Assembly (NCBI RefSeq): GCF_039542905.1
Contig: NZ_BAABIS010000001.1
Location: 5,580,001-5,644,000 of the forward strand
Reading direction: 5' to 3'
DNA: 64,000 nt
Source of the DNA: Kitasatospora terrestris
Lineage (GTDB): Bacteria; Actinomycetota; Actinomycetes; Streptomycetales; Streptomycetaceae
The first letter of the stretch is position 1. Each line of letters starts with the position of its first letter. The notes beneath the pieces are model-generated. The model was not told where the DNA came from, searched no databases, and worked only from the letters and a program-made list of their open reading frames with translations. The position numbers and the translations under genes are program-made. Shown here one piece after another: positions 1 through 55,911 of this stretch.

Positions 1-902
1 TCAACGGCACCTTCTACGCGGCGCCGATGAGCGCCAACATGAAGTCGCTGGTCTGGTACTCGCCGAAGGCCTTCAAGGCGGCCGGCTACGAGGTGCCCAA
101 GACCTGGGCCGACCTGATGGCGCTCAGCGACAAGATCGCCAAGGCGGGCTCCGCCAAGCCGTGGTGCGGCGGCATCGGCTCCGGCACCGCGACCGGCTGG
201 CCGGCCACCGACTGGCTGGAGGAGGTCGTCCTCGGCAGCTACGGCGGCGACGTCTACGACCAGTGGGTCAGCCACAAGGTCAAGTTCAGCGACGAGAAGA
301 TCACCACCGCGATGAAGACGGTGGCCGACTGGATGCAGAACCCGGCCTGGGTGAACGGCGGCTTCGGCGACGTGAAGTCGATCGCCACCACCACCTTCCA
401 GGACGCCGGCACGCCGATCCTCAGCGGCAAGTGCGCGATGCTCCAGCAGGCCTCGTTCTACCGCGCCCAGTGGCCCAAGGGCACGAACATCGGCCCGGAC
501 GGCGACATCTTCGCCTTCCACCTGCCGGCGGTGAACCCGCAGGTCTCCAACCCGGTCGAGGGCGGCGGCGAGTTCCTCGCGGCCTTCTCCGACCGGCCCG
601 AGGTGCAGGCCGTGCAGAACTACCTCTCCAGCTCCGAGTGGGCGAGCAGCCGGGTCAAGACCTCCCAGGGCTGGGTGTCCGCCAACCAGGGCGTGGACAA
701 GAGCCTGTACACCGACCCGATCGACAAGCTCTCGGCCGAGGCGCTCACCGACCCGGCGGCCACCTTCCGCTTCGACGGCTCCGACCTGATGCCGGCCGCG
801 GTCGGCTCCGGTGCCGAGTGGAAGGCGCTGACCGCCTGGTTCGCCGAGGGACAGGCCATCCCGAAGGTGGCGGCCGACATCGACGCGGCCTGGCCGCAGT
901 AA
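1..902 (+). CDS. Sugar ABC transporter substrate-binding protein (alpha-glucoside type), 5' truncated
   Basis: This is the C-terminal part of an extracellular solute-binding protein. The reading frame is open from base 3, so the gene starts upstream of the window and only about 300 residues are visible. The visible part has the stretch MSANMKSLVWY followed by a lobe typical of family 1 sugar-binding proteins, and resembles AglE-type alpha-glucoside binders. It would capture a sugar outside the membrane and deliver it to the two permeases that follow 90 bp downstream. The signal peptide and lipobox are not in view. Sugar specificity is inferred from overall resemblance only. Confidence 0.85.
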   Translation, partial: NGTFYAAPMSANMKSLVWYSPKAFKAAGYEVPKTWADLMALSDKIAKAGSAKPWCGGIGSGTATGWPATDWLEEVVLGSYGGDVYDQWVSHKVKFSDEKITTAMKTVADWMQNPAWVNGGFGDVKSIATTTFQDAGTPILSGKCAMLQQASFYRAQWPKGTNIGPDGDIFAFHLPAVNPQVSNPVEGGGEFLAAFSDRPEVQAVQNYLSSSEWASSRVKTSQGWVSANQGVDKSLYTDPIDKLSAEALTDPAATFRFDGSDLMPAAVGSGAEWKALTAWFAEGQAIPKVAADIDAAWPQ

Positions 903-1997: not shown

Positions 1998-2926
1998 AGC
2001 AGCCGACGACCCGCACGACCGCGCAGCCCGGCGCCGTCCGGAAGGCCTTCAGCAGCCCGCTCGCCTCGGTCCTGGTGATCGCGGTCACCGTGCTGTGGAC
2101 CATCCCCACCGTCGGCCTGCTGGTCACCTCGCTGCGGCCCAAGGCGGACGTCGCGAGCAGCGGCTGGTGGGAGGTGTTCGTCCACCCGAACCTGGGCTTC
2201 GAGAACTACCACGCGGTGCTCTTCGAGGGCGGCTTCGGCAACAGCGCCGGACTGATGCCCTTCCTGGTCAACTCGGTGGCGATCGCCGTACCGGCCACCG
2301 TCTTCCCGCTGGTGCTCGCCGCGATGGCGGCGTACGCGCTCGCCTGGGTGCGGTTCAGGGGCAGCGACGCGGTCTTCTTCGTGATCTTCGCGCTGCAGGT
2401 GGTGCCGCTGCAGATGGCGCTGATCCCGCTGCTCCAGCTGTTCTCCGGCGGCGCCCACCTCGGCTCGGTCACCATCCTGCCCGCGCTCGACCTGCGCGGC
2501 ACGTACGCGCCGGTCTGGCTGGCGCACACCGCGTTCGCGCTGCCGTTGGCGATCTTCCTGCTGCACAACTTCATCGCGCAGCTGCCGCGCGACCTGATGG
2601 AGGCGGCCATCGTCGACGGCGCCTCGCACTTCAAGATCTTCCGTTCGATCGTGCTGCCGCTGTGCGCGCCCGCGCTCGCCTCCTTCGCCATCTTCCAGTT
2701 CCTCTGGGTCTGGAACGACCTGCTGGTGGCCCTCACCTTCGCCGGCGGCACCCCCGAAGTGGCCCCGATGACCGCCCGGCTCGCCCAGATGGCCGGCTCC
2801 ACCGGCCAGCGCTGGGAGCTCCTCACCGCCGGCGCCTTCCTCTCGCTGATCATCCCGCTCGCCGTCTTCTTCGCCCTCCAGCGCTACTTCGTCCGCGGCC
2901 TGTTGGCGGGCTCGGTCAAGGGCTGA
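1994..2926 (+). CDS. Sugar ABC transporter permease 2 (AglG/MalG type)
   Basis: Second membrane subunit of the same importer, 310 aa. It has an N-terminal membrane segment, a periplasmic-side loop and a binding-protein-dependent transport domain. The EAA loop reads EAAIVDGASHFKIFRSIVLP (about residues 206-225). It starts within the stop codon of permease 1 and shows no separate ribosome site, consistent with coupled translation. No gene for a glucosidase or LacI regulator follows it. The next gene, a secreted protein, has its own upstream signals, so the operon probably ends here. Confidence 0.9.
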   Translation: MKQPTTRTTAQPGAVRKAFSSPLASVLVIAVTVLWTIPTVGLLVTSLRPKADVASSGWWEVFVHPNLGFENYHAVLFEGGFGNSAGLMPFLVNSVAIAVPATVFPLVLAAMAAYALAWVRFRGSDAVFFVIFALQVVPLQMALIPLLQLFSGGAHLGSVTILPALDLRGTYAPVWLAHTAFALPLAIFLLHNFIAQLPRDLMEAAIVDGASHFKIFRSIVLPLCAPALASFAIFQFLWVWNDLLVALTFAGGTPEVAPMTARLAQMAGSTGQRWELLTAGAFLSLIIPLAVFFALQRYFVRGLLAGSVKG

Positions 2927-3013
2927 GTCAAGGCCTGGTCACATCTGTCAAGGGAGGGTCACGGATGTGGTGATTCGGGGGACGGTCCGGGGCGCCAGCC
3001 GGTAGACCGGTAG

Positions 3014-3054
3014 CGGCAGTTCTGCCGGTGGACTGGTTATCCGACCTTGGGGGG
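3014..3054 (+). promoter_or_regulatory. Palindrome and putative promoter before the large secreted protein
   Basis: A perfect 14-bp palindrome (CGGCAGTTCTGCCG, 3014-3027) is followed by TTATCC (3037-3042), a plausible -10 element. A G-run ribosome site lies at 3049-3054, before the GTG at 3060. The palindrome sits where a -35 box would be, so it could be an operator. No matching half-site was seen elsewhere in the window. Confidence 0.35.
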
Positions 3055-3059
3055 TTGGC

Positions 3060-6000
3060 GTGCGTGTAAGAAGACGGCTCGCAGGCGTGCTGGTGGGCCT
3101 GCTGGCAGCGGCAGGGCTGGTGGCGGCACCCGCCCACGCCGCGACCGCGGTACTCGGCAACAACGCGGTGGGCGCGGCCACCGACTCGGGCGACTCCAAC
3201 TACATGAACGCCTCGCGCTACGTCACCGGCGCGAACGGAGGCACCGTCTCCAGCGTCAGCGTCCACGTGGGCGCGGTCGGCGCGGCCCCCAACAACCAGT
3301 ACCAGGTGGCGATCTACGGCGACAGCGCCGGGAAGCCGGGCACCCTGGTGGCGGCCAGCGGCAGCGCCACGCTGACCGCCAACGCCTGGAACACCGTCGC
3401 CCTCACCGCCACCCTGACGCCCAACACCCCGTATTGGCTGGCCTACAACTCCAACGGCACCGGCTCCGCGGTCAACAACCTGCAGTACGCCACCGGCGGC
3501 ACCAGCGGCTACTCCACCAGCGGCACCGCCTTCGGCACCTGGCCGAGCAGCTTCGGCGCGGTCTCCACCGGCTCGCTCAACTACTCGATCTACGCCACCT
3601 ACACCCCGGACTCCGGCGGCTCCACCCCGCCCGGCAGCGGCCCCGGCAGCGAGGGCCCGATCCTGCTGGTGGCCGACCCGGCCAACCCCTACACCCGGTA
3701 CTACACCGAGATCCTCAAGGCCGAGGGCCTGAACTACTACAAGGTCAGCGACCTCTCCCAGGTCAGCGCCTCGACCCTGGCCTCCTACGACGTGGTGCTG
3801 CTCGGCGAGATGCCGCTGACCCCGGCCCAGGTCACCATGTTCGGCGACTGGACCACCGGGGGCGGCCGGCTGATCGCGATGCGGCCGGACAAGCAGCTCG
3901 CACCGCTGCTCGGCCTGACCGCCACCACCGGCACGCTCGCCGACGCGTACCTGAAGATCGACACCTCGGCCGCGCCGGGTGCGGGCCTCACCGCCGACAC
4001 CATGGGCTTCCACGGCACCGCCGACCGGTACACCCTCAACGGCGCCACCGCGGTCGCCTCGCTGTACGCGGACGCGTCCACCGCCACCGCCAACCCGGCG
4101 GTCACCCTGCGCACCGCGGGCAGCGGCCGGGCCGCCGCGTTCACCTTCGACCTGGCCAGGTCCGTGGTGCAGACCCGGCAGGGCAACATCGCCTGGGCCG
4201 GGCAGCAGCGCGACTCCACGGACGGCTACGAGGCGGCCGAGATGTTCTTCGGCATCAACGGCCAGCCGAACTGGAACAACCTGGACAAGGCGCTGATCCC
4301 GATCGCCGACGAGCAGCAGCGGCTGCTCTCCAACCTGATCACCCTGATGGACTCCGGCAAGAAGCCGCTGCCGCGCTTCTGGTACTTCCCCCGGGACGTC
4401 AAGGCGGTGGTCATCATGACCGGTGACGACCACGGCATCGGCGGCACCGCGGGCCGCTGGGACGGCTACATCGCGCAGTCCCCGGCCGGCTGCAACGTGG
4501 CCAACTGGGAGTGCGTGCGCGGCTCCTCGTACATCTACACCGACGACCCGATGACCGACACCCAGGCGAAGGCGTACTCCGACCAGGGCTTCGAGGTCGG
4601 CGTGCACGTCACCACCGGCTGCAAGCCCTGGGGCACCGCGGCCGACCTGCAGAACGTCTACGCCACCCAGCTGGCCGCCTGGAAGGCCAAGTACGGTTCG
4701 CTGCCGGCGCCGTCCAGCAGCCGCACGCACTGCGTGGAGTGGGACGACTGGGCGACCCAGGCGAAGACCAAGCTGGCCAACGGGATCCGGCTGGACGCCG
4801 ACTACTACTACTACCCGTCCAACTTCGTGCAGGACCGTCCGGGCTACTTCAACGGCACCGGCCAGATCATGAAGTTCGCGGACGCCGACGGCACCGTCAT
4901 CGACGAGTACCAGGCGACCACCCAGCTGACCGACGAGTCCGGCCAGTCCTACCCGTCGACGATCAACACCCTGCTGGACGCCGCCTACGGCGCGAAGGGC
5001 TACTACGCGGCGCTGAACGCCAACATCCACACCGACTACGCGGCCTCCTCCGCCTCGGACGCGATCATCTCCGCGGCCAAGGCCAAGGGCGTACCGGTGG
5101 TCTCCGGCCGGCAGATGCTCAACTGGCTGGACGGGCGCAACGGCTCCGCCTTCTCCAAGCTCGCCTGGGCCGGCAACGCGCTGACCTTCGACATCACCGG
5201 CGGCACCAACGGGCTGCGGGCGATGGTCCCGGTCAACTCCGCCTCCGGCACGCTCGCCGGCCTGAGCAAGGGCGGCCAGCCGGTCACCTACCGGATCGAG
5301 ACCATCCACGGCACCGCGTACGCCTTCTTCGACGGCGCGGTCGGCTCCTACACCGCCACCTACGGGCAGGACACCACCGCGCCCACCGTGACCGGCACCT
5401 CGCCGGCCGCCGGCGCGACCGGCGTGGCGATCGGCTCCACCGTCCGGTTCTCCTTCAGCGAGCCGCTCGACCCGGCGACGGTCTCCGGCAGCACGGTCAC
5501 CCTGAAGACCACCAGCGGCGGCACGCCGGTCGCGGGCGCCGTCTCCTACGACGCGGCGACCAGCACCGCGGTCTTCACCCCGAGCGCCGCGCTCGCCCTG
5601 ACCACCGGGTACACCGCCACGGCGCAGGGCGTGAAGGACGGTGCGGGCAACACGCTGGCCGCGCCCTACGCGGTCTCCTTCACCACCGGTGGCGCGCCGC
5701 CGAAGACCATCGGCAACACGGCCATCGGCACCCTGATCGACGACACCGACTCCAACCACCTCAACGGATCGAAGATCACCACCGGGGCGAGCGCGGTACC
5801 GCTGACCTCGCTCACCGTGCACGTCGGCTCGGTCAGCGCCGCGCCCAACAACCAGTTCCAGCTGGCGGTCTACAGCGACGTCTCCGGCTCGCCCGGCAAC
5901 CTGCTGGTCTCGACCGGGAGCGGTACGCTGACCGGCAACGCCTGGAACACCGTGCCGGTCGACTACACGCTGGCCGCCAACACCACCTACTGGCTGGTGT

Positions 6001-51127: not shown

Positions 51128-52515
51128 CCGGCGACTACACCCCCACCATGACCTTCCACCCGCAGCCCCAGCCCGGCACCCCCACCCCCTGGGCGTTCCC
51201 GGCCCCCGAGCGGACCACCCTCTCCAACGGCCTCACCGTCCTGCACTGCCACCGCCCCGGCCAGCAGCTGGTCGCCGTCGACCTCGTCCTCGACGCCCCG
51301 CTCGCCGCCGAACCCGAAGGCCTCGACGGCATCGCCAACATCCTCGCCCGGGCCCTGTCGGAAGGCACCGACACCCTGAGCGCCGAGGAGTTCGCCGGCG
51401 AACTCGAGCGCGCCGGCGCCACCCTCGACGCCCACGCCGACCACCCCGCCGTCCGCGTCTCCCTCGAAGTCCCCGCCTCCCGCCTCGAACGCGGCCTCAC
51501 CCTGCTCGGCGACGCCCTGCGCGCCCCCGCCCTCCCCGAGGACGAGATCGAACGCCTCGTCGCCAACCGGCTCGACGAGATCGTCCACGAGCAGGCCAAC
51601 CCCGCCCGGCGCGCCGCCAAAGCCTTCTACGCCACCCTCTTCGCCGAGGACGACCGGCTCTCCCGGCCCCGCAGCGGCTCGACCGACACCGTCAAGGCCA
51701 TCGACCGGGCCGCCGTCCACGCCTTCTACCAGGCCCACCTGCGCCCCAGCACCACCACCGCCGTCGTCGTCGGCGACCTCACCGGCATCGACCTCACCGC
51801 CCAGCTCGAAGCCACCCTCGGCACCTGGACCGCGGCCCCCGCCGAAGCCAGCACCCACGCCCCCGTCACCGCCGACGACACCCCGCGCGTCGTCATCGTC
51901 GACCGGCCCGGCTCCGTCCAGACCCAGCTCCTCATCGGCCGCATCGGCCCCGACCGCCACGACCCCGCCTGGGCCGCCCAGATCCTCGGCACCTACTGCC
52001 TCGGCGGCACCCTCACCTCCCGCCTCGACCGCGTCCTGCGCGAGGAGAAGGGCTACACCTACGGCGTCCGGGCCTTCGCCCAGCCGCTGCGCTCGGCCGC
52101 CGACGGCAGCGGCCGCGCGCTGCTCGCCATCAGCGGCTCCGTGGACACCGGGAACACCGCCCCGGCCCTCGCCGACACCTGGACCATCCTGCGCACCCTC
52201 GCCGCCGAAGGCCTCACCGACGGCGAACGCGAGGAGGCCGTCCAGTTCCTGGTCGGCGTCGCCCCGCTCAAGTACGAGACCGCCGGCTCCGTCGCCGCCA
52301 CCCTCGCCGACCAGGTCGAGCAGTACCTGCCCGACAACTACCAGGCCGAGGTCTACCGGCAGCTCGCCGAACTCGACACCGAGACCGCCACCCGCGCCGT
52401 CGTCGCCGCCTTCCCGCCCGACCGCCTGGTCACCGTGCTGGTCGGCGACGCCTCCGTGATCGCCGAACCCGTCAAGGCCCTCGGCATCGGCGACGTCACC
52501 GTCATCGCCAACTGA
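51124..52515 (+). CDS. M16-family peptidase homologue, non-catalytic subunit
   Basis: A 463-aa M16 fold protein in which the zinc motif is absent: the equivalent region reads GLDGIANILARAL. It retains the R/Y pair typical of the partner subunit (LTSRLDRVLREEKGYTYGVRA, about 297-317), which helps bind substrate for the active subunit. Coupled translation with the catalytic subunit supports heterodimer formation. A strong terminator follows. Confidence 0.92.
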   Translation: MTGDYTPTMTFHPQPQPGTPTPWAFPAPERTTLSNGLTVLHCHRPGQQLVAVDLVLDAPLAAEPEGLDGIANILARALSEGTDTLSAEEFAGELERAGATLDAHADHPAVRVSLEVPASRLERGLTLLGDALRAPALPEDEIERLVANRLDEIVHEQANPARRAAKAFYATLFAEDDRLSRPRSGSTDTVKAIDRAAVHAFYQAHLRPSTTTAVVVGDLTGIDLTAQLEATLGTWTAAPAEASTHAPVTADDTPRVVIVDRPGSVQTQLLIGRIGPDRHDPAWAAQILGTYCLGGTLTSRLDRVLREEKGYTYGVRAFAQPLRSAADGSGRALLAISGSVDTGNTAPALADTWTILRTLAAEGLTDGEREEAVQFLVGVAPLKYETAGSVAATLADQVEQYLPDNYQAEVYRQLAELDTETATRAVVAAFPPDRLVTVLVGDASVIAEPVKALGIGDVTVIAN

Positions 52516-52527
52516 GGCACCTCCGAC

Positions 52528-52561
52528 GGGGCCCGACGGAGCTGGTGCTCCGTCGGGCCCC
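52528..52561. terminator. Terminator of the M16 operon
   Basis: A perfect 15-bp stem (52528-52542 with 52547-52561) and TGGT loop lie 12 bases after the stop, with a modest T-run after it (CGTCGTTTAAT). Confidence 0.85.
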
Positions 52562-52660
52562 GCCGTCGTTTAATCCCTTGCCGGTGCTCCGCCGCCCGTG
52601 GGTGAATGTCCCCGGCCCCGCAACGCGCCGGGCCGAACACCACGAGAGGAGGCGGTCACC

Positions 52661-52723
52661 ATGCGGGTCGAGCCATACGTCCGATGCTCCCCGAGACTGT
52701 CGCTCCTCCGTCGCGCAGCCTGA
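52661..52723 (+). CDS. Putative 20-aa leader peptide upstream of rtcB
   Basis: ATG at 52661 opens a 20-codon frame (MRVEPYVRCSPRLSLLRRAA, then TGA). It is preceded by AGAGGAGG (52645-52652) at an 8-base spacing, one of the strongest ribosome sites in the window. Five of its residues are Arg, using the rare codons CGA and AGA among others. It ends 85 bases before the rtcB ATG. A hairpin lies between, suggesting translation-coupled control. It could be chance, but strong ribosome sites are rarely found without use. Confidence 0.5.
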   Translation: MRVEPYVRCSPRLSLLRRAA

Positions 52724-52746
52724 GCGCTGCCCCCAGTCTTCCCCGA

Positions 52747-52772
52747 GCCGCACCGGGACCGGTGTGTGCGGC
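52747..52772 (+). promoter_or_regulatory. Alternative hairpins in the rtcB leader
   Basis: GCCGCAC (52747-52753) can pair with GTGCGGC (52766-52772). The loop contains CACCG..CGGTG (52751-52755 with 52760-52764), which competes for the same bases. The rtcB ribosome site (GGAGG at 52795-52799) lies shortly after. Confidence 0.4.
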
Positions 52773-52808
52773 ACCATGTCATCAGCGACCTTTGGAGGTC
52801 GAACCACC

Positions 52809-54002
52809 ATGTCGTACACCGAAGTACCCGGCATCCGGGTCCCCATCCGGATGTGGACCGACCCCGCCACCGTCGAGGGCCAGGCCATGCAGCAGCTGCG
52901 CAACATCAGCTCCCTGCCCTGGCTGCACGGCCTCGCCGTGATGCCCGACGTCCACCTGGGCAAGGGCGCCACCGTCGGCTCCGTCATCGCCATGAAGGGC
53001 GCCGTCTGCCCCGCGGCGGTCGGCGTCGACATCGGCTGCGGCATGACCGCGGTCAGGACGTCCCTCACCGCGAAGGACCTCCCGGACGACCTCTCCCGCC
53101 TCCGCTCCAAGATCGAGCAGGCCATCCCGGTCGGCCGCGGCCTCCACACCGACCCGGTCGACCCGGGCACCCTGCACGGCTTCCGGGCGGCGGGCTGGAG
53201 CGACTTCTGGGACCGCTTCGACGGCATCGCGCCGGAGGTGAAGTGGCGGCGGGAGCGGGCTGCGCAGCAGATGGGAACCCTCGGATCGGGCAACCACTTC
53301 TCGGAAGTTTGTATAGATACCAATGGTGTGGTGTGGCTGATGCTGCACTCCGGATCGCGCAACATCGGCAAGGAGCTGGCCGAGCACCACATGGGCGTCG
53401 CGCGCTCGCTCCCGCACAACCAGGGCCTGGTCGACCGCGACCTGGCGGTCTTCATCGCGGACACCCCGCAGATGGCCGCTTACCGGCAGGACCTGTTCTG
53501 GGCGCAGGAGTACGCGAAGCACAACCGGGCGATGATGATGGCCTTGATGCAGGACGTGGTGCGCCGTGAGTTCCCGAAGGCGAAGGTGGTCTTCGACGAG
53601 ATGATCTCCTGCCACCACAACTACGTGGCGGAGGAGCGGTACGACGGCGTCGACCTGCTGGTCACCCGCAAGGGCGCGATCCGGGCCGGCTCCGGCGACT
53701 ACGGGATCATCCCGGGCTCGATGGGCACCGGCTCGTACATCGTGCGCGGCCTCGGCAACAAGGACGCGTTCAACTCCGCCTCGCACGGAGCGGGCCGCAA
53801 GATGAGCCGCACCGCGGCGAAGAAGCGGTTCACCACCCAGGACCTGGTGGCGCAGACGGCCGGCGTCGAGTGCCGCAAGGACTCCGGCGTGGTCGACGAG
53901 ATCCCGGGCGCGTACAAGAACATCGAGAAGGTCATGGACCAGCAGCGCGACCTGGTCGAGGTGGTCGCCCACCTCAAGCAGGTCGTCTGCGTGAAGGGCT
54001 GA
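52809..54002 (+). CDS. rtcB: RtcB-family RNA-splicing ligase
   Basis: A 397-aa RNA ligase that joins 2',3'-cyclic phosphate (or 3'-phosphate) and 5'-hydroxyl ends using GTP and Mn2+, acting in RNA repair. Metal and guanylylation residues are visible: DVHLGKG (47-53), Asp74 and Cys77 in VDIGCGM, His163 in GSGNHF, His180 in LHSGSRNIG, CHHNY (268-272), and His326 in SHGAGR, the expected guanylate carrier. Length is typical; no intein is present. ATG 52809 has TTTGGAGG upstream. Its stop is 4 bases from the stop of a convergent endonuclease gene. Archease is not encoded nearby. Confidence 0.95.
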   Translation: MSYTEVPGIRVPIRMWTDPATVEGQAMQQLRNISSLPWLHGLAVMPDVHLGKGATVGSVIAMKGAVCPAAVGVDIGCGMTAVRTSLTAKDLPDDLSRLRSKIEQAIPVGRGLHTDPVDPGTLHGFRAAGWSDFWDRFDGIAPEVKWRRERAAQQMGTLGSGNHFSEVCIDTNGVVWLMLHSGSRNIGKELAEHHMGVARSLPHNQGLVDRDLAVFIADTPQMAAYRQDLFWAQEYAKHNRAMMMALMQDVVRREFPKAKVVFDEMISCHHNYVAEERYDGVDLLVTRKGAIRAGSGDYGIIPGSMGTGSYIVRGLGNKDAFNSASHGAGRKMSRTAAKKRFTTQDLVAQTAGVECRKDSGVVDEIPGAYKNIEKVMDQQRDLVEVVAHLKQVVCVKG

Positions 54003-54006
54003 TCGG

Positions 54007-54825
54007 TCAGGCCCGGGCGTGCGGGATGCGCGTCCGGACCCTTTGCGGTCCGAACATCCGCCAGCGGCGCATGGCGCAGCTCTGCACGGTGCGGCCGAGT
54101 TCTGCCGCGGCCGCCTCGGCGCTGGGGCACGCGCGGAGGACGTCGAGTTCGTGGGCGGTCCAGCGGCGCTGGTGGATCTTCGGCCGGTCGGCAGGGCGGA
54201 TCCATGCGGCCGCGTGGGCCGCTGCGGACAGTTTGCGGGGGAGGGCGAGAGCGCCCGGGTAGTAGAGGTCCCGGGCGAGGGCGACGGCGTCCTCGCAGGT
54301 GTAGAGGATGTTGTAGATGTCGTCCCGGGCGTTGCGGTTGACCGTCCGGTGTGTCCCGGTGACCTGCTGGGCGTAGTCGCAGAAGAAGCGCTTGATCGGT
54401 TCGCTCTTCGTCGTCAGGCTCACGAACGGAAGCCCTGCGCCGGTCCGCCCGACCGATCCATCGGCGTCGACGAGCCCCCGGACGTAGTCGCGGGTGGAGA
54501 ACGGGACCGTCGGCGGCGTGACGGAGTCGGACTTGCGGCCGATCGGGAGTCCGAGGTCGAGGAGCTGTTCGCGGAACTCGAGGGCATGGACCGACCAGGC
54601 CGCGGAGGCGTGTTCGGCGGCGAAGTTGGTGGCCCGGGTGCGGTACTTGATGCTGCTGTTGTGCGGGCAGATCCGCTGGAAGGCTTCGAGGATCGGCGCG
54701 TCCCGGGCGGAGACCTCGACGCTGACGCGGCCGCGGTTGCGGTCGCTCGCGGAGTGGTGCCCGTCGGCCTGGAGGAAGGCGAACATGTAGGCGTGGTCGG
54801 GCGCTTCGAGGGTGAACTCGTCCAT
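54007..54825 (-). CDS. Free-standing LAGLIDADG-type homing endonuclease-like protein
   Basis: A 272-aa protein. Two dodecapeptide-like motifs are visible: MFAFLQADG (14-22) and RGLVDADGS (116-124), each followed by a region with basic and aromatic residues. This is the layout of a monomeric double-motif LAGLIDADG endonuclease. Residues about 220-260 (RRWTAHELDVLRACPS.. ELGRTVQSCAMRRWRMFG) form a SANT/HTH-like DNA-binding end. ATG 54825 is used, although no ribosome site is evident; an in-frame TTG at 54903 is possible. It is tail-to-tail with rtcB. Activity and target are unknown. Confidence 0.75.
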   Translation of the reverse strand: MDEFTLEAPDHAYMFAFLQADGHHSASDRNRGRVSVEVSARDAPILEAFQRICPHNSSIKYRTRATNFAAEHASAAWSVHALEFREQLLDLGLPIGRKSDSVTPPTVPFSTRDYVRGLVDADGSVGRTGAGLPFVSLTTKSEPIKRFFCDYAQQVTGTHRTVNRNARDDIYNILYTCEDAVALARDLYYPGALALPRKLSAAAHAAAWIRPADRPKIHQRRWTAHELDVLRACPSAEAAAAELGRTVQSCAMRRWRMFGPQRVRTRIPHARA

Positions 54826-54909
54826 GGGGCCCAGCCTGCGGCGAGTGTTCGGCGGCCGGGCGGGGATCGGGGCCGGATCATCCGATGAGGTGCTTTCGCT
54901 CAAGTCGAA

Positions 54910-55854
54910 ATGTCCGGTTCAATGGCCCGCGTGGATCAGGACGTGGAGTACGGGCGGCTGCTGCGGGACGTGATGGCGACGGCGTTGGCGGGGGAGGCGC
55001 GGGGGCGGCCGGCGGATTACATCCCGGCGCTGGCGGCGGCGGATCCGTCGGCGTTCGGGATGGCGCTGGCGACGGTGGACGGCGCGGTGTTCGGGGTGGG
55101 CGAGTGGGAGGTGCCGTTCTCGATCCAGTCGGTGTCGAAGCTGTTCAGCCTCGCGCTCGCGCTGGCGGAGGGCGGGGACGGGCTGTGGGGCGGGGTGGGG
55201 CGGGAGCCGTCGGGCAACCCGTTCAATTCGCTGGTGCAGCTGGAGTCGGAGCAGGGGATCCCGCGCAATCCGTTCATCAACGCGGGGGCGCTGGTGGTCA
55301 CGGACCGGCTGCTGGAGCTGACGGGGGACGCGGCGGGAGCGGTGCGGGATTTCCTGCGCGCCGAGTCGGGGAACCCGGCGGTGGGGACGGACGACGCGGT
55401 GGCGGCCTCGGAGGCGCGGCACGGCCACCGGAACGCGGCGCTGGCGCACTTCATGGCGAGCTTCGGGAACCTGCGCAATCCGGTGGGCAGCGTGCTGGCG
55501 CACTACTACGCGCACTGCGCGATCGCCGCGTCCTGCCGGGACCTGGCGCTGGCGGGGTTGTTCCTGGCGCGGCACGGGGTGCGGGCGGACGGTTCGCGGC
55601 TGCTGTCGCGCAGCGAGGCGAAGCGGATCAACGCGGTGATGCTGACCTGCGGGACGTACGACGCGGCGGGGGACTTCGCGTACCGGGTGGGGCTGCCGGG
55701 GAAGAGCGGGGTCGGCGGCGGGGTGCTGGCGGTGCTGCCGGGGCGGGGGTCGGTGTGCGTGTGGGGCCCGGGGTTGGACGCGGCGGGCAATTCGGTGCTG
55801 GGGGTGGCGGCGCTGGACGCGTTGACGACGGCGACGGGCTGGTCGGTGTTCTGA
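54910..55854 (+). CDS. glsA: Glutaminase
   Basis: A 314-aa glutaminase of the beta-lactamase-like fold, converting glutamine to glutamate and ammonia. The catalytic Ser-x-x-Lys is SVSK (74-77); NPFINAGAL (about 119-127) and SFGNLRNP add the family pattern. Start codon uncertain: ATG 54910 or ATG 54922, neither with a good ribosome site. Divergent from the endonuclease gene with only 84 bp between the assigned starts. Followed by a strong bidirectional terminator. Confidence 0.93.
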   Translation: MSGSMARVDQDVEYGRLLRDVMATALAGEARGRPADYIPALAAADPSAFGMALATVDGAVFGVGEWEVPFSIQSVSKLFSLALALAEGGDGLWGGVGREPSGNPFNSLVQLESEQGIPRNPFINAGALVVTDRLLELTGDAAGAVRDFLRAESGNPAVGTDDAVAASEARHGHRNAALAHFMASFGNLRNPVGSVLAHYYAHCAIAASCRDLALAGLFLARHGVRADGSRLLSRSEAKRINAVMLTCGTYDAAGDFAYRVGLPGKSGVGGGVLAVLPGRGSVCVWGPGLDAAGNSVLGVAALDALTTATGWSVF

Positions 55855-55880
55855 GGCGCGCAGTGGTCCGGGTGCGCGGA

Positions 55881-55911
55881 AGGGGTGCGCCGCGCAGTGC
55901 GGCGCACCCCT
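55881..55911. terminator. Bidirectional terminator, glutaminase / HPr
   Basis: AGGGGTGCGCCGC (55881-55893) pairs perfectly with 55899-55911 around a 5-base loop, between convergent genes. Confidence 0.85.

Follow-up and report, generated by a model that had tools for sequence, protein, structure and literature searches.

Introduction

The closest described counterparts of the locus reported here are SegF and SegG of phage T4. These are free-standing enzymes that spread by intronless homing, and their cleavage sites lie hundreds of base pairs or more from their own genes (PMC2988022). Flanking DNA is co-converted during this process, and the markers of the uncut partner are preferentially lost (PMC2988022). 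The sites that such endonucleases recognise often code for residues critical to function (PMC2988022). Most descriptions of intronless homing come from phages (PMC2988022, PMC3984707).

Kitasatospora terrestris carries a gene, here called HEG, that resembles the T4 genes in being a free-standing endonuclease gene; a distant cut and co-conversion are predicted for it from sequence comparison. It differs in that SegF and SegG are phage enzymes of the GIY-YIG kind (PMC2988022), whereas HEG encodes a LAGLIDADG protein on a bacterial chromosome. Other known systems share single traits with it. The convergence of an endonuclease and an intron on one site is a described origin of mobile introns (PMC3984707). 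As in the collaborative homing of the psbA cyanophage system (PMC3984707), the predicted target of HEG coincides with a group I intron insertion site; unlike that system, the homologue in Bacillus phages already lies inside the intron, while the bacterial relatives stand free beside an intron-less gene. WhiA (DUF199), present in Streptomyces, also combines a LAGLIDADG fold with a C-terminal DNA-binding domain, a function that is only predicted for HEG, but WhiA is a conserved transcription factor (PMC3984707), whereas HEG is patchy and keeps its catalytic aspartates. In the RtcB inteins (NCBIfam NF052663, NF038162) rtcB likewise hosts a homing element, but HEG is a separate antisense reading frame and its product has no intein domain match in Pfam. 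The best NF052663 stretch begins at residue 77 of the RtcB studied here, so the inteins probably use a different site. A related case is an actinophage methylase with mobile elements at several of its sites (PMC9957025). Among the matches listed in a search of titles and abstract openings in the open-access PMC literature, with subscription papers and preprints outside its scope, none dealt with an rtcB-linked homing endonuclease or with the rtcB intron of these phages.

We consider it probable, at roughly 0.78, that HEG is a free-standing LAGLIDADG homing endonuclease gene spreading by intronless homing into rtcB, with a predicted target around codons 158-168.

The endonuclease gene and its product

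The window, meaning the whole 64,000-nucleotide stretch of K. terrestris DNA analysed, contains the following features.

52809-54002, plus strand: rtcB, uninterrupted, 397 aa, the predicted target gene (Pfam RtcB, E=8e-124)
54007-54825, minus strand: free-standing LAGLIDADG homing endonuclease gene (HEG), 272 aa, ATG start (open reading frame, Pfam and PHROG matches, structure model)
54760-54786, minus strand: first LAGLIDADG motif MFAFLQADG, residues 14-22, with D21 (invariant in 38/38 aligned proteins and 98/98 long-match copies)
54454-54480, minus strand: second LAGLIDADG motif RGLVDADGS, residues 116-124, with D122 (D120 and D122 invariant, 98/98)
54052-54162, minus strand: C-terminal three-helix SANT/HTH-like domain, residues about 222-258 (helices in the model; DNA binding predicted)

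The preliminary description of this DNA placed the endonuclease gene 4 bases from rtcB, tail to tail, and called rtcB uninterrupted; indeed the two stop codons are 4 bases apart and the 397-aa rtcB frame is intact. A longer reading of HEG is possible from a TTG at 54903. Both claimed LAGLIDADG motifs are present in a two-repeat protein of 272 aa. The protein matches Pfam LAGLIDADG_3 (2.5e-8, passing the family cut-off), as do all 38 members of its alignment, and PHROG 4645 'endonuclease' (3e-15). Three of the 38 relatives also match Hom_end weakly.

The AlphaFold2 model (pLDDT 92.3) has two alpha/beta repeats of the LAGLIDADG type, followed by three C-terminal helices within residues 224-258 (224-232, 236-243 and 247-258). 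These helices fit the SANT/HTH-like end that had been proposed, although Pfam gives no HTH for the window protein; Sigma70_r4_2 is weakly matched by 3/38 family members. The best Foldseek match of the model is I-Tsp061I (E=8e-10), and bI3 maturase is among the others. In the VIA structure comparison PI-PfuI scores Z 17.3 and WhiA Z 13.6, and I-DmoI and I-OnuI also match. A sequence search with the protein found no match in the PDB.

Residues D21, D120 and D122 are invariant in the 38-protein alignment, which includes the window protein and reaches down to 42% identity with it, so the motifs are more than chance. The check for conserved catalytic acidic residues proposed in the preliminary description found aspartate in 98 of the 98 copies of the codon set described below. 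We take D21 and D122 to be the catalytic aspartates from general knowledge of the family. Two motifs in a LAGLIDADG fold, each ending in a conserved acidic residue, are among the features of a LAGLIDADG homing endonuclease, a class of enzyme that makes site-specific double-strand breaks in DNA at long recognition sites. HEG has normal codon use (GC3 0.92) and a median dN/dS of 0.21 over 51 close pairs, with 0.10 for rtcB in the same pairs. From its sequence, HEG looks like the gene of a working, mobile nuclease.

Distribution, decay and surroundings of HEG

HEG is matched in 58 of 394 genomes of the same family, the Streptomycetaceae, and rtcB is present in 383 of them. In 43 of the 58 genomes HEG appears as a single match spanning 240 residues or more; in the other 15 it is fragmented or frameshifted. 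Not all of the long matches are intact: 4 of the 43 have an internal stop, one copy (L087) has an internal deletion, and an early stop occurs in two of 82 loci (L170, L210). HEG lies tail to tail with rtcB in 54 of the 58 genomes, making it a presence/absence polymorphism at a fixed locus. Two other copies adjoin an rtcB stub, of 35 N-terminal codons in G125 and 64 in G180, and two have no recognisable rtcB (G082, G359).

The link to rtcB extends beyond the family, and the arrangement varies. Of the 80 loci kept from a scan of genome contigs, which gave 128 relatives in total, 78 were tail to tail with rtcB, with 8-253 bp between match ends. HEG is upstream of rtcB and divergent in Actinomadura oligospora; around the copy of S. 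mexicanus (L196) there is no rtcB within the fetched stretch. A class-level draw of 394 genomes yielded 11 with a HEG match, three of them outside the Streptomycetaceae, and in one genome of another family (G494) HEG is again tail to tail with rtcB. Two IMG/VR contigs carry HEG on the downstream side of rtcB, same strand, in one and upstream in the other, and an uncultured 485-kb phage and a Jeotgalibacillus plasmid carry it downstream. The rtcB-HEG pairs lie at 2793-4768 of a 132.8-kb IMG/VR contig (L238; RtcB 60% identical to the window's) and at 2821-4672 of the 485-kb phage record (L036; 55% identical), and these viral contigs are possible shuttles. Two genomes, G499 (L291) and G570 (L292), have a HEG relative but lack rtcB both in its vicinity and, at E 1e-60, in the rest of the genome, a possible change of target.

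In five HEG-positive genomes rtcB is missing or truncated: G125 (L095), G180 (L097), G082 (L077), G359 (L096) and L196, with no rtcB in the fetched stretch of the last three. HEG occurs in 4 of 11 rtcB-less family genomes vs 54 of 383 with rtcB (p=0.06), so a loss of rtcB beside HEG is suggestive only. Separately, four loci from genomes without a HEG match have rtcB in two pieces or truncated (L286, L287, L288 and L289, of G204, G263, G243 and G210), so rtcB may be dispensable there.

The next genes beyond HEG in the window are glsA and then HPr. The closest named relative of the HEG protein in the genome collection, from K. paracochleata, is 67% identical, and both genomes have the gene order M16-M16-rtcB-HEG-glsA-HPr. 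The preliminary description had suggested comparing empty and occupied rtcB-glsA junctions. HEG-free relatives do exist, but they give no clean insertion point downstream of rtcB because their gene content varies in other respects as well: L040 and L045 have no glsA between rtcB and HPr. In the window glsA (54910-55854) separates HEG from HPr.

HEG stands outside any intron or intein, as a separate antisense frame beside the uninterrupted rtcB. We rejected the idea that it is an intein, as it is on the opposite strand, outside rtcB, and the Pfam scan of the window protein shows no intein domain. A mobile group I intron was also rejected for the window, since no Rfam group I ribozyme match was found around HEG (52300-55900). 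No tRNA gene was found in the window.

A phage homologue within a group I intron

In five Bacillus subtilis phages a HEG homologue (43-44% identical) lies between two parts of rtcB. The Rfam group I intron RF00028 matches at the end of the first rtcB part in all three phages tested (E 1.1e-16 to 2e-15). Comparing the interrupted site with the continuous rtcB site, which was present in all four related phages looked at (Grass, BSP38, Goe24 and 035JT004), the splice sites would delimit an intron of 1120 nt that ends in G, with boundaries GGT (G161) / AAT (N162) CAC/T TTC. The intron splits rtcB exactly between G161 and N162 of GNHF, in the numbering of the window; this is the GNH motif, which we take to belong to the RtcB active site. 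In the records of three of these phages (L033, L034, L037; intron at 3668-4787) the two rtcB exons are annotated as separate genes.

Sequences resembling the core of this intron occur in many other phages (259 records, 147 of them from Staphylococcus), suggesting that a common intron has this HEG as its passenger. At six other loci with a free-standing HEG, no group I intron scored above the Rfam threshold.

The recoded tract in rtcB

The codon analyses used 241 distinct Streptomycetaceae rtcBs: 98 HEG-positive (240 or more matched residues), 15 carrying a HEG fragment and 128 HEG-free. The first 30 HEG-free rtcBs of the largest genus were the best-scoring, so 80 lower-scoring HEG-free genomes were added; the HEG-positive and HEG-free sets were not drawn identically. 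Duplicates were removed only where rtcB was identical. Loci without one full-length rtcB match (among them the broken rtcBs of G204, G263, G243 and G210) fall outside the codon sets, as do the phage, plasmid and Actinomadura loci. The 15 fragment loci were left out of the tests of HEG-positive vs HEG-free rtcBs. They differ from the 15 broken copies among the 58 family matches, as they include L055 and L060 (below the threshold of the family scan) and lack L077 and L089 (no full rtcB).

The intron site of the phages falls within a tract of unusual codon use in the bacterial genes.

53277-53333, plus strand: recoded rtcB tract, codons 157-175, containing the AT-rich stretch gaagtttgtatagataccaatggt (GC3 profiles, codon tables)

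Within this tract GC3 is 0.62 in HEG-positive, 0.61 in fragment and 0.77 in HEG-free rtcBs; outside it, GC3 is 0.93-0.95 over codons 1-140 and 0.91-0.96 over codons 190-397. There are no gaps within codons 150-180 of the 241 genes. Codon changes on the 5' tree peak at codons 157-168 (962) and 169-180 (914), with 310-763 in the other blocks of 12 codons. Asn codons end in A or T in 0.65 of cases inside the tract and 0.07 outside it in HEG-positive rtcBs; the corresponding values in HEG-free rtcBs are 0.32 and 0.05. Gly codons of the tract show no such difference (0.46 in both groups).

HEG-free rtcBs of other actinobacterial families mostly have no dip. In 11 of 12 the tract GC3 is 0.89-1.00, like the remainder of the gene, though 7 of the 12 share only 44-48% identity with the RtcB of the window and may belong to a different subfamily. 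In the remaining one (L310) the values are 0.58 in the tract vs 0.68 elsewhere. The dip is present in both HEG-positive actinobacteria from other families whose rtcB is complete (0.44 vs 0.87 and 0.53 vs 0.74).

Within the family, the tract GC3 is below 0.68 in 66 of 98 HEG-positive vs 42 of 128 HEG-free rtcBs. When phylogenetically independent pairs were compared, low tract GC3 by itself showed no significant association with HEG, the median p being 0.69 for the 5' tree and 0.29 for the 3' tree. A search for remnants that would mark the low-GC tracts of HEG-free genes as scars of lost HEGs did not bear this out: a remnant lies beside only 1 of the 128, the fragment loci having been classed apart beforehand. 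Protective tracts may spread or be retained in the absence of HEG; alternatively, something else also shapes the tract. Just upstream, A156 replaces G (ATLGGGNHF) in 11 of the 128 HEG-free rtcBs, including L043, L046, L049, L052 and L053, and in 0 of the 98 HEG-positive ones.

Residues 164-165 and the HEG-linked haplotype

Two further features of the window follow from the phage intron and from the association of rtcB residues with HEG.

53280-53304, plus strand: candidate recognition and cleavage region, centred on G161/N162 (53291/53292) (phage intron boundary, empty sites and the 164-165 association; predicted for the window)
53292-54006, plus strand: 3' part of rtcB as a HEG-linked haplotype between the predicted cut and HEG (linkage and association analyses)

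G161-N162-H163 is invariant in all 98 HEG-positive and all 128 HEG-free rtcBs. The two residues that follow are not. F164-[IV]165 is retained in 11 of 98 HEG-positive vs 108 of 128 HEG-free rtcBs (Fisher 4e-30), F164 is absent from 8 of the 128, and the window's own codons 164-165 (53298-53303) encode F-S. The association holds in phylogenetically independent pairs drawn on a tree built from rtcB codons 1-140: HEG and the loss of F-[IV] coincide in 9.2 pairs and are opposed in 0.1 (median p 0.004, 13 supported pairs), and residue 164 alone gives 7.2 same vs 0.2 opposite (p 0.016). Residue 164 ranks first among 135 polymorphic RtcB residues for association with HEG, and the eleven residues ranked after it are all on its 3' side (174-377).

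The haplotype tied to HEG extends from codon 164 towards HEG. With close pairs excluded, HEG status was predicted from 30-codon windows with a balanced accuracy of 0.49-0.68 up to codon 160, 0.82-0.83 from window 141-170 through window 161-190, and 0.60-0.79 in later windows. On the 5' rtcB tree HEG status requires 54 changes and non-F164 requires 46; on the 3' tree the numbers are 32 and 7, with the reservation that the 3' tree uses more sites, which in itself lowers the counts. Among codons outside both trees, 143-157 fit the two about equally, and from 158 on the 3' tree fits better.

The divergence of HEG itself follows rtcB at both ends. Its correlation with rtcB divergence is rho 0.63 for codons 1-70 and 0.53-0.59 for codons 251-397, and lowest, 0.14, in the tract; the partial correlations are 0.36 (3') and 0.32 (5'). 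The 3' half was not singled out in this distance comparison. HEG thus tracks the 5' end as well as the 3' end, which argues for largely vertical inheritance with local conversion.

Discussion

In our model of intronless homing, the enzyme would cut HEG-free alleles of rtcB around codons 158-168, the region coding for the GNH motif, near codon 162. Recombinational repair from a HEG-positive donor would then copy the sequence that starts at the cut, spans the 3' half of rtcB and reaches into HEG. The carrier may be protected by a recoded site, in which F164 and/or I/V165 are replaced and wobble positions are changed, while G161-N162-H163 stays unchanged. Such immunity by recoding would be needed because HEG, about 700 bp away, leaves its own site undisrupted. 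The preliminary description had suggested, as one alternative, a mobile endonuclease that targets this locus. That suggestion is supported by the patchy distribution, the invariant aspartates, the broken copies, the link to rtcB in unrelated hosts and the intron version in phages. As to where the enzyme acts, the evidence points away from the rtcB-glsA junction to a site inside rtcB.

The target of a mobile HEG could also be the place downstream of rtcB where HEG itself is inserted, or DNA next to it, with the tract at codons 157-175 an unrelated mutation or recombination hotspot. This would fit the recoded tracts of HEG-free genomes (42/128), and endonucleases of the intron-encoded kind do cut near their own insertion (PMC2988022). 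We regard it as unlikely. The phage homologue lies in an intron at codon 161/162, none of the 135 residues is more strongly associated with HEG than residue 164, the tract is lacking from 11 of 12 HEG-free outgroup rtcBs, and the side, strand and distance of HEG vary between hosts while rtcB is the constant neighbour.

It is quite improbable that the HEG product works at the RNA level, as an RNA endonuclease or maturase-like factor kept for joint work with the ligase, with residue 164 co-varying for functional reasons. The tract differs at synonymous positions of invariant residues (AT-ending Asn codons, 0.65 vs 0.07), which a protein partner could not see. Moreover, 336 of 394 family genomes have no HEG match though rtcB is nearly universal, and 15 of 58 copies are broken. 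These observations outweigh the steady company that HEG keeps with rtcB across hosts, the purifying selection on it, and the existence of LAGLIDADG maturases such as the Foldseek match bI3.

The domesticated DNA-binding regulator offered as an alternative in the preliminary description is very improbable: HEG has the fold of WhiA (Z 13.6), an HTH-like end and normal codon use (GC3 0.92), but its catalytic aspartates are invariant (98/98), its distribution is patchy and decaying (58/394), and it has no WhiA family match in Pfam or NCBIfam. Of the three traits by which that description would have recognised a resident protein (presence in all relatives, normal codon use and degenerate acidic residues), only the codon use was found.

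Intronless homing into rtcB leads to a broader and more tentative picture, to which we give somewhat less than an even chance. The locus may represent a natural gene drive that acts on bacterial chromosomes and moves as a drive-plus-antidote cassette made of HEG and the recoded 3' half of rtcB. An arms race over one DNA site would then have diversified the codons and residue 164 beside the GNH of a conserved RNA ligase, and in phages a common group I intron would have captured the same enzyme family at exactly this site. If so, both the 'before' and the 'after' states of a composite mobile intron survive.

The convergence model of collaborative homing bears on how mobile introns came by their endonucleases. 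Since free-standing and intron-borne members of one family occur at what appears to be the same site, the convergence model of composite introns becomes testable on a single DNA substrate with a pair of related enzymes. The family would also supply new meganucleases that target rtcB. There is also a warning for students of RtcB, as variation near its active site may reflect a conflict at the DNA level and not enzyme function. In the Streptomycetaceae, a large family, intronless homing appears to operate on bacterial chromosomes, where the target, the immunity changes and the decay of the endonuclease can be read across many species.
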